Assembly: GCA_001599975.1 (NCBI GenBank)
Contig: BCIO01000006.1
Location: forward strand, 1,607,587-1,671,586
From: Cystobasidiopsis lactophilus
Taxonomy: Eukaryota; Basidiomycota; Agaricostilbomycetes; Agaricostilbales; Chionosphaeraceae
Reading direction: 5' to 3'
DNA: 64,000 bases
Made by a program: the position numbers and the translations under genes
Notes under the pieces: model-generated
The model's input: the letters and a program-made list of their open reading frames with translations, nothing else
The model's database searches: none
What the model was told of the DNA's origin: nothing
Part shown: positions 57,041 through 64,000 of the stretch, piece after piece
Layout of the letters: each line of letters opens with the position of its first letter
How positions within the stretch are numbered: position 1 is the first letter of the stretch

Positions 57041-57650
57041 GCAATCGTACCATGCCTACCATTGGTTTTCGCGTGTCGCGCTACCGAGTGAGTGTCTGGT
57101 TGGACCTGCCATTCAGCCCAGCGCCACTCATACGGACGGGGTCAACAGATCCGGCTGCCGAATTTCCTCCGTCTTGCGCTCAGCACGTCTCCTTCTTCCA
57201 CGTTCAAATAGAGTGATTTCAGCTTTCACTTTCCTGGCGCCAACATCTCCCTTCACCCTCGCGCCGGCAACAAGTGCCCTATACCTTTCAGTGACTACAC
57301 CCCTCCATGCTCAGTTCTCACCCTCTGTGCCATCGATTCATCGATTCCTTCCACATAAAGATACCATTCATCTTCAATTGTACAAGTGCACATCAACTAG
57401 CCATTTGCATCGCTTTGGACTGACAGTTGGCTTCAAGTTGCCACCGCTTCCTTGCATCAGTGGCCTAGCTCGGGTCCTTCGCCAGCACTTGCAACGACTG
57501 TGGCTTCCGTCGCCAAGACAGCTTGAGTGATTGAGCATATGGTGCACTCGCCGACCGCAAGCCGCGCTCCGCTCAACCCTGGCAGGCTCGCTCGCCAACG
57601 AAAACGCATGTTGGAGAGCTCCTTAGCGACACGATCTGCACTCAGCATCG
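57041..57650. other. Intergenic, no gene recognised
   Basis: About 610 bp with the 3' flank of the Myb gene and the promoter of the F-box-like gene. Open frames overlap on both strands without family features. Confidence 0.4.
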
Positions 57651-58555
57651 ATGACCATCGAGCTCCCCTTTGATCTTGTCAGGCACATCATCGACTTCGT
57701 GTCCGCCCACACGACCGGCAAGCTGCTGGCGATCCTCGAGGGCTTCAAGTGCCAAAGGTTCCTCCCCGCCATCCAGGCGCGACTTCTGCGCGAGGTGCAC
57801 CTCTCGGTCTACAGAACGACTTTCTGGGACAGGCCAAACGCCCGGCCAGCCGCCGGCTTGCTCTATAGCCTCACTCCGCCGCCCCAGTCCCGAGCCTCGT
57901 TCATCAAGGAGCTCACGCTGGAAGGCATTTATGGCTACGATTCGGACGCATACACGTCTCAAATAGAGGCCTTTGCTGTATTGCACCTTTGCGTGGACCT
58001 GCAGTGGCTTCACCTCGTTCAATTTGACGCCGTCGCTTTGCGGACTGCGATCGTGGGCCACGCGCTATTTGAGGCTTCTATCTTGATGAAGAGTCTAACA
58101 AATGGATCCTGCAGGACCTCCTTCAAGCATCCAGACTTGTCGGACTCACCGTCACCGCTGGCGAATGGCCGCACCTCGACCTCTCAGCCTTGGACGGGCT
58201 GTTCGCCAAGTGCCCTCACCTTCGCTCGCTGACCCTCTCCAAAGTTGTCTTCACCGAGAACGACCTCAAGCGCCTTCCAGAGGGCTTGGTCCACCTCGAC
58301 CTCTGGTGCACTGTGTCCAACTTTCGAGACAACTTTCGCTCGATCATCCTAGCCTTGCTTCAGCCCGAGGCGCTTCCTCAATTGAAACAGCTCTACTTTG
58401 GTTGCGGCTCGAAGGGGCGGCGCATGTGCACCTCTCAAGACTTGTCGCTCTCCCTCGTCCGCCCGCGCCTCCAAATCCGCTGCTGCAAGCCCTTTGTCCC
58501 GCTGCTTGATGACCTCTTCGATGTCCGCCCTCATGTATACATCATTGAAGACTGA
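57651..58555 (+). CDS. F-box-like/LRR-type protein
   Basis: It starts MTIELPFDLVRHIIDFVSAH, a good F-box-like first helix (Leu-Pro-x-Asp/Glu-Leu), then FLPAIQARLLREVHLSV and FIKELTLEGIYG. The frame then shifts: from about 58093 the reading is SNKWILQDLLQASRLVGLTV, then LDGLFAKCPHLRSLTLSKVV and LPEGLVHLDLWC, which are clear leucine-rich repeats. A 41-nt intron (about 58052-58092, GTGGGC donor, GAAGAG end) would join the two parts in frame. It is shorter than other introns here, so a real frameshift is the alternative. The gene probably ends at IIED-stop (58555), but a good splice donor at 58565 and acceptor near 58618 could extend the transcript. Confidence 0.6.
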
Positions 58556-59034: not shown

Positions 59035-59739
59035 CTAACGCCTCTTCCCCTCGACCCTCGCTTCGGTCCCAATTCCAACTCCGTCCTCAAGACCCGAGAC
59101 ATCGTTGGCCGTTGATATCGTTCTCTCATCCTGCCGCTGTTGAGCTGAGCCAAGCACTCCCTGGGGAAAGGAAGACTCACTGGGTGCCATCGTCTTGACA
59201 AAGTTTTGCTCCAGCATTTCTTTGCCGCACTTCCACCCCAGCTGCTCGTCCACCAACATGAATCCCGCCTGATCGTACAGCTTTCTGGCCACTTCCAGCC
59301 CTTTGAAGGTGAAAAGGTGGACCTCTTTGAAACCCCGCTCTTCGCAAAAGTCCATGGCAGCTTTCATCATTCGCTTGCCGGCGCCCGTTCCCCTGGCACA
59401 ATCGTCCACGATGAACCAGCGCAAGGTCGCCTTCCCATCCCCAAGCAGCTCGCCGTCGATCGCCAGCGTGCCCACCACTTGGCCATCATCCAACACGGCC
59501 AGCCACATCGCGTTGTCCTCCCGGTCGATCCTCGCTGCGAACTCGCCCAGCCCGGCAGCTACCACACCCTCGAAGTGACTACCAAGGCCATGGACGCGGG
59601 AATAATAGAGGCCGTGCATTTCGGCGCAGCGGCCTAGGCAGCCAGGGCGATAGCCTCGTTGAATTGACACGTTGGGAGGCCTGAGAGCTTGCTCGGCCGA
59701 CTTTGTCGCTTCCTCCAATGCATCTGTGGATTTTGACAT
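59035..59739 (-). CDS. GNAT-family N-acetyltransferase
   Basis: A single-exon frame of 234 codons. The core shows NAMWLAVLDDGQVVGTLAID, then RWFIVDDCARGTGAGKRMM with the acetyl-CoA pyrophosphate loop (R-G-T-G-A-G), then AMDFCEERGFKEVHLFTF and ARKLYDQAGFMLVDE (motif B with the Tyr). The N-terminal 40 and C-terminal 45 residues are low-complexity and variable. It transfers acetyl from acetyl-CoA to an amine; the acceptor is unknown. It resembles the acetyltransferase module fused to MarR regulators in bacteria. Confidence 0.87.
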   Translation of the reverse strand: MSKSTDALEEATKSAEQALRPPNVSIQRGYRPGCLGRCAEMHGLYYSRVHGLGSHFEGVVAAGLGEFAARIDREDNAMWLAVLDDGQVVGTLAIDGELLGDGKATLRWFIVDDCARGTGAGKRMMKAAMDFCEERGFKEVHLFTFKGLEVARKLYDQAGFMLVDEQLGWKCGKEMLEQNFVKTMAPSESSFPQGVLGSAQQRQDERTISTANDVSGLEDGVGIGTEARVEGKRR

Positions 59740-60215
59740 GCTTGATGGTACGAAAACAAGAGCTCAAAAGGTTGTGGGGTCGAAAACTTTCGTATCGAAG
59801 GTGCCAGCAACTTGAAGTGGCTGGATTTAGATGCCGAGATGAATCAGCAAGCCGAAGAGCTAAATCTGCGGCTGCATTGAACGATAGTGCTCGTCGTTGT
59901 TGAAGCAGCGTATCTCCCTAAGTCCGAAGGTGTTCCTGCGAAGCGAGCGAAAATTTTGCCACCTCCGCTGGAAGCCTGGAACGACGAAAGCGAAGGGCGG
60001 CGACTTTAGGCCGGCCCTGTATGCCGAAACCTGGGCGATAGAAGGATGAAAATGCATTCTGAAAGCAAGCAAGCTTCTCGAGCCCCCCGCAATACTGATG
60101 CTCGCTCAATGCAAGTTGCCACTGACAATCTCATCTTCTCCTGCCCACCTGCCAATGCGCCTCTTGCTCATGATAGTCCCATTGAATGAATCCGGATGTA
60201 AATGGATGTTGAAGA
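59740..60215. other. Intergenic, no gene recognised
   Basis: About 475 bp with the promoter of the GNAT gene and the 3' flank of the first PPPPY-family gene. Confidence 0.4.
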
Positions 60216-61196
60216 TCAGTAAGGTGGAGGCGGCTTGGCTCCGCTCGAGCTCGCGGCGGCTGCTTCGACCTCCTCTTGCTTGCTTTCGCTGGTAGACGCG
60301 CTAGAGGGAGCTGAGATTTTGGCGTCAAGAAAAGAGGATATGGCCTTGGTTCGTTCTGGAACGATGTGTGTGAGCGTCTGAAAGCCAATGCCGAAGTCAA
60401 TGACTGCACCCTGCAGCTCGCTGATAGCAGAAGCCATTTGGTGCGGCAGCCACCGGTGGCGAATATAGTTTCCATTGTCAGTAAGCTCTTTTGGCCTGTT
60501 TGGGAGATATTGAGACCCAGATCATGTCAACGCCAAAAGCAATGAAAAGCTTTGCCTTGCACTGGTCGCCGAATAGGTGCAAGTGTGGGAGTGTGGGACC
60601 CATTTGCGAGCATTTTTCTTCTCGAACAGGCCCCAGTGTGCTGCAATGGCCTTCGTTGCCTCGTCGATTTGCAAGATCTCTTCTCTGATCTGCCCAAACT
60701 CCTGGCTGGCCATAGCTTTGTCAAGCTCGCTCTTGAGGCCGTTTGCCCGCTCAATATTGAGATTGATAGTCTAGGATGAACTCGTGGTATGACGTCTGCT
60801 TCAGGCTGCGAGGGAGCGAGGGAGACTCGCCTCTAAAATCAACACACACTCTTCGTTCAGAGATATCTGCCAGCTTGTGACTGCCAGCTTGAAAACCGCT
60901 GCATTCGACTTCCACTGGATGGGTACGTCTTTGCAGGACATCATCTGGATTGCGGATGGATCTGCAGTATTGACCCAGTAATAGAGCTTGTCTTTGGCTT
61001 TGGGCCCATCGCGTTTGAGAATGTAGAAAGGGCAGTCGATAGGAGGAAGACTTGGAAGTGACGACTTTGTCAGCGTGCTGTTGGGTACTGTCACCGTTGA
61101 AGAGCTCTCGGACGATCGAGAATGGCGAGAATGCGCAGAATGTTTGTGTTGCGACTTGAACACCGAGGTCAATCGAGCTGACAGCGAGGACAGCAT
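60216..61196 (-). CDS. PPPPY-family protein A (unrecognised family, C-terminal PY motif)
   Basis: Multi-exon minus-strand gene; exon 1 is 61196-60831, then a GC-AG intron. It starts MLSSLSARLTSVFKSQHK, followed by a Ser/His-rich stretch. Core blocks: LYYWVNTADPSAIQMMSCKD, QWKSNAAVFKLAV, LNEECVLILE; after intron 1 TINLNIERANGLKSELD, then IREEILQIDEATKAIAAHWG; after another intron DNGNYIRHRWLPHQMASAIS and ELQG; the last exon ERTKAISSFLDAK and an Ala/Ser/Glu-rich helix ending GAKPPPPY-stop. I do not recognise the domain. The final PPPPY contains PPxY, which binds WW domains, so recruitment of an Rsp5/NEDD4-type ligase is an inference. No signal peptide or membrane helix. Confidence 0.75.
60771..60830 (-). 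other. GC-AG intron in PPPPY-family gene A
   Basis: A 60-nt intron with donor GAG/GCGAGT and acceptor CCTAG. It is in phase 0 at the same place where gene B has an ordinary GTAAGT intron. Read-through meets a stop codon, so removal is needed. Confidence 0.7.
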
Positions 61197-61999
61197 GGTC
61201 TGCACTTAAACTTGGTCGTCGAACGCACAAGAGAGGGAGAAGAGCGAACTACGCAATCCCCACGATGTCGCGGAGCCGTTGACTTGGCTCATGCTAAAGC
61301 GCGGCGGTGCGGCAACGAAGGTTCTTGTCCGGGGTCCCATAGAGTCAGATCACATCAATGACGCCGACACGACACAAGAACGCGCGCGAAAGGCACAGAA
61401 ATGTCGACATGTGGCAGATGCAAGATAGAGAGTTCTAACTTCTGAACCAGTGGCACTGGTACGAGTGAGCATTGGGCAGGCCGCAACGAAAACTCTCAAT
61501 TGCATCCTAGAGCAAATCAGCCGGCCGGGAGACACCGAACATAGCCCTTCAATCCTTGGAAAGGCGCGTTTGTCGCAGTCGGGCGAAAAGGCTGAGTGAG
61601 TCTTGAGGACAAGCATGGGATCAGGATAGCGCTGTCCGACAGCTTTGGGCACTGTTCGGTCGGTAAAAAGCTCAAGCAGGCGCGGTATGTGGAGAGGATG
61701 ACATTGAAAGAGCCTGAGGGGTCAGTCTGGCAAGCAATCCGCTTTTTGCCACTAGGAATTATCGCTGTCACTTGCGGTCGAAGTGTCAACTGGAAGAGAT
61801 GTACATTCAACGGAAACAGACCCAGGAACAAAGGCCCTGCTCGAAGTAGTTCCATAGGGGACGCCGCCACCACCGCCTGCCGGTCGCACGGTGACCTTGA
61901 TCTCGCCCGTTCCCAGTCCTTCCTCCCCGTAGAGTCGCAGTCTTCATCTTTTGCCTGCCTTCATAGTGGTGCCTGCACAGGGTTGAAGGTGCTGACAAG
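61197..61999. other. Spacer between PPPPY-family genes A and B
   Basis: About 800 bp without a supported gene. Overlapping open frames on both strands (e.g. 61350-61652 minus, 61596-62006 plus) show no family blocks and no PPPPY end. Confidence 0.4.
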
Positions 62000-62900
62000 T
62001 CAATAAGGCGGAGGCGGTTTGGCATCCGTCGAGGATTGGGCTGCAGCTTCGGCCTCCTCCTGCTTGGCTTTGCCAATAAGTGACTTAGTGGGCGATCGAT
62101 CCTTAGCGTCAATGAGCTCGGAGATGGTCTTGGTTCGATCTGAAGGGCCTCATGAGTTTCGCGCGAGCACTCGAAAGGCACTGGACATACCCTGGAGTTG
62201 CTTAATGGCATTTTCTACCTGCTGAGGGATCCACCTGTAAAGCATGTAGTTCGCATTGTCGTTGAACTGTTGTTCACTGTTTGGAGGCATCTAAGTGCTG
62301 CGCACGTCTGTATGGCAAACAGCCAACGTACTTGGCCTTGGTTTTCTCATAAGTATTAAGGCAGCTATGCATCTCGGGAGCGCCAGTTCGATGGAGTGTC
62401 TTCTCTAAGAGCTGCCAGCGACTGGAAATCGCCTTCGTAGCCTTGTCAACTTCTGAGACCTCTTGCCTGATTTGTGCAGAGTTTGGTCTCTTCAGAATGC
62501 TGCCGAGCATGCCAGCGAGACCATTGGCTCGTTCAATGTTGAGATTGAGCGCCTGAAGTGAATGAGTACGCGGTTTCACGGAAGCTAACACTTCAGGACA
62601 ACTTACCGTCAGGATGAGAGCGCACTCTTCGTTCAACGGCCGGCACCACTCTTTGACCGATAGCTTGTGGATTACAGCGTTCGACTTCCATTGAGCAGGC
62701 TCCTCCTTGCCACACATAACCTCAACATTCGCTGGGTCGGCAGTGTTCACCCAGAAGATCAGCGCATCTCCCTCCTCAATCTTGGTACTGTCGGCTTTCT
62801 TGTGTTTCGTCAAACTGAAGAAAATATTGATAGGAGGAAGCTCTGGGGAACGCCGCGAACCGAAGGCGGACGCCAGTCGGGCTGATAGCGAGGACGGCAT
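62000..62900 (-). CDS. PPPPY-family protein B (unrecognised family, C-terminal PY motif)
   Basis: Multi-exon. It starts MPSSLSARLASAFGSRRSPE and lacks the long Ser/His insert of A. Core blocks: ALIFWVNTADPANVEVMCGK, AQWKSNAVIHKLSVKEW, LNEECALILT; then a GTAAGT intron; ALNLNIERANGLAGMLGS, IRQEVSEVDKATKAISSRWQ, CLNTYEKTKAK; another intron; DNANYMLYRWIPQQVENAIK and QLQG; an intron; DRTKTISELIDAKDR and a charged Ala/Glu-rich helix ending TDAKPPPPY-stop. Intron positions match gene A. The helical second half may be a coiled-coil partner-binding surface. Function unknown; the C-terminal PY motif is the only interpretable signal. Confidence 0.78.
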
Positions 62901-63456
62901 GTTCTGGAGCGATAGCGAAGGGAAAGCGCCGTGCAGTCAACACAGGGAAGTGCGAAGGAGGTGCTCGAGGTCGTGGGCACAGGTGAAAACGTAACGGAGC
63001 CGTTCTGAGCTGACAAGTCGCGGGGCACGGCACATCCCACGGGAAAAGGAAGTTAAGATTCGGACGATCATGGCCGTCGTCATTGCGGCCCAGGCTGCCT
63101 CAGAGCAAGCAGCTTGTGCCTCGAAGACACGCAACCCAAGATCAGAGGACAAAAAGAGAAAAGGAATCGATGTGTCCGAGCCTGAGTGGCAAAATTTGGG
63201 CAGGGGCAGAGATAGCGGCAGTTGCGGTTCAAATGTGAATTGGACGCTACAAAGGGTCTTATTTCAAGGATTTCATTCGACATGGTGTGCAGGAATCTCA
63301 ACGCCAGCCCTCCAGCCTGAGAGCAGCGCCGCCACATCGATTCAACCTGGCCGGTTGCCACTTCGCTTTACCCCTTCTGTCCTCCCAGCGATGATCCACT
63401 TCATCATTTCAGTATTGATCGATTGTGAGGCATGAGGGTTGCTCTGGCCAAAGAAG
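62901..63456. other. Spacer between PPPPY-family genes B and C
   Basis: About 555 bp with no family blocks and no supported gene. Confidence 0.4.
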
Positions 63457-64000
63457 CTAGTACGGCGGTGGTGGCTTGAGGTCGGTTGAGCTTGCTGAAA
63501 ACGCCTCCGCCTCCTTTTGCTTGCGTTCACTGCTTCCGTCAAGTGCTTGCAGATCCTTCTTGCTTTCACTGGGAAACTCCGTCGGCAAGGGGGTAGTGGA
63601 AGCTTTGATGAAGGAGGAGAGCGTTTGGGCGCGATCTGAAGGGCATGCCTGTCAATATTCTTATGCCAAACAGAAAGTAAGCCTTGACTCGCCTCGGAGC
63701 AGCTTGATGACACGTTCTACCTCGCCAGGAATCCACTTGTTGAGCATGTAGTTGGCATTTGCTGCAAACTCGTCTCGGCTGCGGAAAGCTGTCAGTCCCG
63801 GTTTCTGCAACTGCAAAGGGACACCATACTTCGCCTCCGTTTTCACATGTGTGTTGAGCGGCGTGTGGGACAATGGTGGGCTAGACCGATCCAGATTCTT
63901 TTCGAACGCCTCCCAGCAAGTGGAAATGGCATTGGTGGCCCGGTCGAGCTCCGAGACCAATCGTTTTAATGGCTTGAAGCGCCGTTGCTCCACGTTCGAA
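63457..64000 (-). CDS. PPPPY-family protein C, C-terminal part (5' end outside window)
   Basis: The window edge cuts off the N-terminal half. Visible blocks: FKPLKRLVSELDRATNAIST and CWEAFEKNLDRS, matching the VDKATKAISSRW region of B; NTHVKTEAK before an intron; then NANYMLNKWIPGEVERVIKL and LRG; after the next intron RAQTLSSFIKAST and a charged helix ending STDLKPPPPY-stop (63457). Same strand and same intron positions as A and B, so it is a third tandem copy. Confidence 0.75.

Follow-up and report, generated by a model that had tools for sequence, protein, structure and literature searches.

The 64,000-nucleotide (nt) stretch of Cystobasidiopsis lactophilus DNA analyzed here (GCA_001599975.1, BCIO01000006.1 positions 1,607,587-1,671,586; hereafter the window, with its contig denoted C6) carries at its right end, on the minus strand, three spliced genes, A, B, and C, which belong to a family of seven paralogs whose proteins have diverged throughout their bodies while retaining a common C-terminal tail, PPPPY in five of them. 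The best-kept element of these proteins lies at the end of the chain, after cores that have diverged and a linker that varies, as is expected of a docking tail common to proteins that would each carry something different to a single reader. On balance the tail probably serves, in some role, as a PPxY ligand of the ligase Rsp5. Each protein would then comprise a core and a linker of variable sequence, with [K/R]PPPPY as the tail at the C-terminus or close to it; the tail would dock into WW domains, most likely those of Rsp5, and the diverged cores would bring different partners to Rsp5, the proteins being either adaptors of a non-arrestin kind or substrates that Rsp5 controls. The role of adaptor is plausible, if short of probable.

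The tails of genes A, B, and C were read directly and recovered by pattern search at 60219..60233, 62003..62017, and 63460..63474, respectively, all on the minus strand. Each is followed at once by a stop codon (TGA in A and B, TAG in C), and in each a lysine stands directly before the prolines, not two or more residues away as stated in the preliminary description of this DNA. That description also had every copy ending in PPPPY, which is correct for all three copies in the window and for five of the seven in the genome: A, B, and C end in KPPPPY-stop, D in RPPPPPY-stop, and F in RPPPPY-stop, whereas gene E ends in SPPPYRKVGTAV-stop, where PPPY is kept seven residues before the end, and gene G ends in SPPPH-stop, where the tyrosine is absent. 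Three of the five exact tails are followed by TGA and two by TAG, and K or R precedes the prolines in all five. The pattern CCN-CCN-CCN-CCN-TAY-TRR has five matches in 22,136,282 bases, every one of them in the A-G family and with a true stop; the reversed pattern, taken as a control, has four matches in the same bases. PPPY-stop occurs at six sites in the genome, of which five, counted by eye, belong to the family and the sixth lies at C1:3555337, on the second contig that carries family members. The last residues of gene E, behind PPPYRK, are T-A-V; ErbB4 has a PPPPY with a PDZ-type end after it, and the likeness of the gene E end to it is probably a coincidence.

When all seven proteins are aligned, the tail ranks first by identity among 222 five-column alignment windows, taken over the columns that are occupied in A, B, C, and F. 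Identity between A-D and F is 100% in the tail, 48% in the first 17 residues, 26% in the exon 1 core, 28% in exons 2-3, 21% in the exon 4 helix, and 11% in the linker; over all ten pairs between C6 and C1, with E and G included, it is 80% in the tail and 14% in the linker. The top rank of the tail and its contrast with the linker, which between the two clusters is nearly random, bear out the earlier proposal that the tail is conserved. The accompanying proposal that the N-terminal half diversifies is too narrow, as the whole body diverges and the first 17 residues do so less than the remainder of it. Likewise, the sequence blocks given as landmarks of that half (WVNTADP, QWKSNA, and NEECxLIL) hold for A and B; their counterparts in C, situated beyond the window, read WVNTANS, DWEPND, and DDEYGKIL.

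The codons of the five exact tails, which are copies selected for having the tail, differ by nine or more silent changes and by no replacement (P 1.4e-5 to 2.7e-5), and by a hand count over all seven tails 2 or 3 of the 12 or 13 changes are replacements (P 1.5e-4 to 9e-4); the changes are minimum counts made without a tree. Because the tail codons differ mostly at silent sites, selection keeps the tail peptide, not its DNA. Tandem arrays can convert, and the identity of the tails might in principle reflect recent gene conversion, or else chance, without any function. This account is highly improbable, however, given that silent differences are present at each of the five tail codons, that the same tail is found in F on another contig, that PPPPY-stop does not occur outside the family, and that no long near-identical DNA surrounds the tails in the tail DNA inspected; conversion or chance as the origin of the tail was rejected on the pattern search, the codon differences, and the window ranking. 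The chain-end position and the variable linker suggest that the tail may lie in an exposed, unfolded segment.

Exon models were set by homology between the copies together with splice sites (tblastn). Gene A (61196-60216, minus strand, 268 amino acids) has exons 61196-60831, 60770-60556, 60495-60410, and 60355-60216, and gene B (62900-62000, minus strand, 246 amino acids) has exons 62900-62607, 62552-62332, 62276-62191, and 62139-62000, the stop being included in both. Gene C (64483-63457 on the window scale, minus strand, 288 amino acids) is held by the window from 63457 to 64000; exon 1 and part of exon 2 (64050-63830) lie beyond the window end, and exons 3 and 4 are 63778-63693 and 63635-63457 (stop included). 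The array of three paralogs first described in the window is larger in scope, since it continues head to tail on C6 with genes D (66257-65338) and E (69082-68140), both beyond the window and given on its scale, for a total of five, and two more genes, F (C1:3217356-3216301) and G (C1:3216126-3215166), lie on the second contig. All seven models share a common plan of four exons with intron phases 0/2/1, in which exon 2 measures 212-227 nt and exon 3 80-95 nt. Short of transcript data, this shared exon plan and the protein alignment through exon 4 speak against the tails being untranslated.

Four of the 21 modeled family introns start with GC and not GT, namely introns 1 and 2 of A (60771-60830 and 60496-60555), intron 3 of C (63636-63692), and intron 1 of E (68719-68770, window scale), and three of these begin GCGAGT. 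GC-AG introns are rare, and four of 21 is many by that measure. The introns of gene A are 60, 60, and 54 nt long; as all three lengths are divisible by three, a single frame spans the gene, and its three stops fall within introns 1 and 2.

Used as genome-wide queries, B, F, and E each retrieve all seven members (C at an E value of only 0.25 with F), and G retrieves six, missing C; no additional locus stood in the searches with these four queries. The extra rows at C6:848147 (E value 0.58) and C6:547014 (E value 0.92) were dropped, these regions having given just chance-level tblastn matches, as were C2:2635595 (E value 0.04), judged from its DNA only, and C5:2826464 (E value 0.56), on the listing alone. 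Exon profiles run on the surroundings of the C6 array (44 kb) and of the C1 pair (20 kb) return the seven genes at E values <= 2e-16 and nothing else below 0.2.

The body of the proteins was described at the outset as an unrecognized family, and it has remained so, no family being assigned from Pfam, NCBIfam, or the PDB. With all seven members, the best Pfam E value is 0.018, and the seven families at E <= 1 are each matched by one member, none of them an arrestin; with B only, the best NCBIfam match has an E value of 4e-4 and 18.6 bits against a cut-off of 860; and in the PDB profile search with all seven members the best match, at an E value of 0.21, is a designed coiled-coil protein. Structure prediction of the core, which had been suggested as a check, was run and yielded low-confidence models that name no fold. 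The model of exon 1, built from two sequences (predicted local distance difference test, pLDDT, 61), has a short N-terminal helix and five strands, and the very poor model of gene A (pLDDT 37) has helices for exons 2-4. On these models exon 1 probably supplies the strands of the core, and exons 2 to 4 the helical segments that come after them. Both low-confidence models place a helix at residues 5-14; an N-terminal amphipathic membrane helix is not supported, as the hydrophobic moment of residues 2-15 falls within that of shuffles in all seven proteins (upper-tail fractions 0.11 to 0.90).

The protein database contains no homolog at E <= 1 either with B alone (469 candidates) or with the seven-member alignment (5,396 candidates). 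This negative is weak, because a control query with the neighboring acetyltransferase gave 31 matches, of which the six named are bacterial or generic and none fungal, and the database thus appears poor in fungal proteins. No tandem family with C-terminal PPPPY tails was found described in the titles and abstract starts of the open-access papers that the literature searches listed. The novelty of the family is thus weakly tested, and no claim is made that it is new to public fungal genomes; PPxY partners of Rsp5 are themselves a known kind.

A candidate reader of the tail is present in the genome, which has 12 WW matches and 10 HECT matches, the latter at four loci. Among the listed matches a single locus, C4:2817300-2819601, has WW and HECT together: a single open frame contains three WW domains (C4:2817300-2817863), and the HECT matches (2818408-2819601) follow about 0.5 to 1.0 kb on. 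The best PDB matches of this frame are yeast RSP5 structures (E value 8e-58), covering WW3 and what follows, and its three WW domains are of the VDHN..TTTW form, which we take to be the PPxY-binding class. The locus is thus predicted to be an Rsp5-like (NEDD4-type HECT) ligase gene, in agreement with the expectation that the genome has a ligase of this type. The WW domains of Rsp5 are described as recognizing PPXY or LPXY in adaptors (PMC2810449). The PPPPY motif is also described in other proteins: the PPPPY of RNF11 is that of Smad7, a binder of the Smurf2 WW domains, and is also reported in Smads 2 and 3 (PMC2394340). In orthologs of a yeast WW partner, PPxY is reported to be sometimes PPxF or PPxH, and the PPPH of gene G is the same kind of change (PMC1557994).

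The tail might instead be read at its free end, as a C-degron or by a reader of the terminal carboxylate, or might be a poly-proline ligand of SH3 or profilin, in keeping with a tyrosine that closes the chain in five of seven proteins, in all five of which the prolines directly follow K or R. Gene E, however, keeps PPPY with seven residues behind it, which argues against a free-end signal, and the tyrosine is kept in six of seven although poly-proline readers do not need it; both forms of this explanation are decidedly unlikely compared with a WW ligand.

Several observations weigh against Rsp5 as the partner, or against the PPxY reading altogether. PPxY-TRR as such is not enriched in the genome (98 sites, compared with 149 when the pattern is reversed as a control), E carries seven residues after PPPY, and G is without the tyrosine. 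Yeast alpha-arrestins (ARTs) are described as each having several C-terminal PPxY motifs (PMC8050425), and the family proteins have one. The core is without a matched family or fold and so gives no indication of a function in cargo binding. Finally, nine of the 12 WW matches fall outside the Rsp5-like locus, and the partner could be among these; in three of the five outside matches that were read, a histidine occupies the place presumed typical of tyrosine-binding WW domains. The tail might accordingly serve some other WW protein, in splicing, signaling, or as a scaffold. That only one locus among the listed matches joins WW and HECT, and that its three WW domains are of classical form, makes such a partner unlikely and favors Rsp5.

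If Rsp5 is the partner, the role of the family proteins may be compared with that of known systems. The ARTs, like the family proteins, are fungal with PPxY behind a core, and are described as linking Rsp5 to cargo (PMC2810449, PMC8050425). They differ in that neither Arrestin_N nor Arrestin_C is found in any of the seven family proteins by Pfam scan, in that exons 2-4 of the family are helical in a very low-confidence model, and in the number and place of the motif, multiple in the ARTs (PMC8050425) and single at the end in the family. The genome has arrestin matches of its own, two to Arrestin_C and two to Arrestin_N, at four places, and of the two Arrestin_C loci that were read, one continues in its frame with LPPY and PPAY, so that the usual kind of adaptor appears to be present beside the A-G family. 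The PY adaptors Bsd2, Tre1/2, Ear1, and Ssh4, whose PY motifs are reported to direct Rsp5 to specific proteins (PMC2810449), differ from A-G in being described as membrane proteins; no Pfam domain is assigned to A-G. A precedent, likened to A-G by its description only, is CNAG_05520 of Cryptococcus neoformans, reported as an Rsp5 target specific to basidiomycetes that takes the role of Rim8 there and as an Rsp5 partner without arrestin domains (PMC12345238). A-G could form a new class of non-arrestin Rsp5 adaptors, with a core peculiar to it, that multiplied in tandem to seven diverged cores sharing one retained docking tail and that exists alongside the genome's arrestin-type adaptors; this more specific proposal is offered tentatively.

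Alternatively, the family proteins might themselves be Rsp5 substrates, in turnover or sorting, the tail being a docking site that sets their level. A single PPxY in six of the seven proteins, with no second PPxY in any, and the 14-22 lysines of each protein would suit such a role, whereas a turnover signal by itself leaves seven diverging cores with a kept tail unexplained. The data do not separate the two roles, and that of substrate is considered the less likely.

An open reading frame (ORF) for an acetyltransferase (GNAT) at 59038-59763 of the window adjoins the array. Its 31 database matches are all to GNAT proteins, many of which also carry a MarR-type domain, and identity reaches 57%; transfer from bacteria is conceivable, in a database that seems poor in fungi. 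Leucine-rich ORFs that appear LRR-like by eye flank the array at 57627-58555 and, on the window scale, 69979-70731. The window also has matches to Csf1, DUF3818, and PXB, which we take to be fungal and which would fit a fungus as host of this DNA.

Rsp5 in fungi is described as reaching many substrates via PPxY adaptors (PMC2810449), and the family would add to these seven concrete candidates that were identified by means other than resemblance to adaptors already known. At least one Rsp5 partner in a basidiomycete is reported to be unrelated to the yeast protein whose place it takes (PMC12345238). A rare chain-end PPPPY that is kept as the body diverges may also provide a cheap rule for finding more such proteins.
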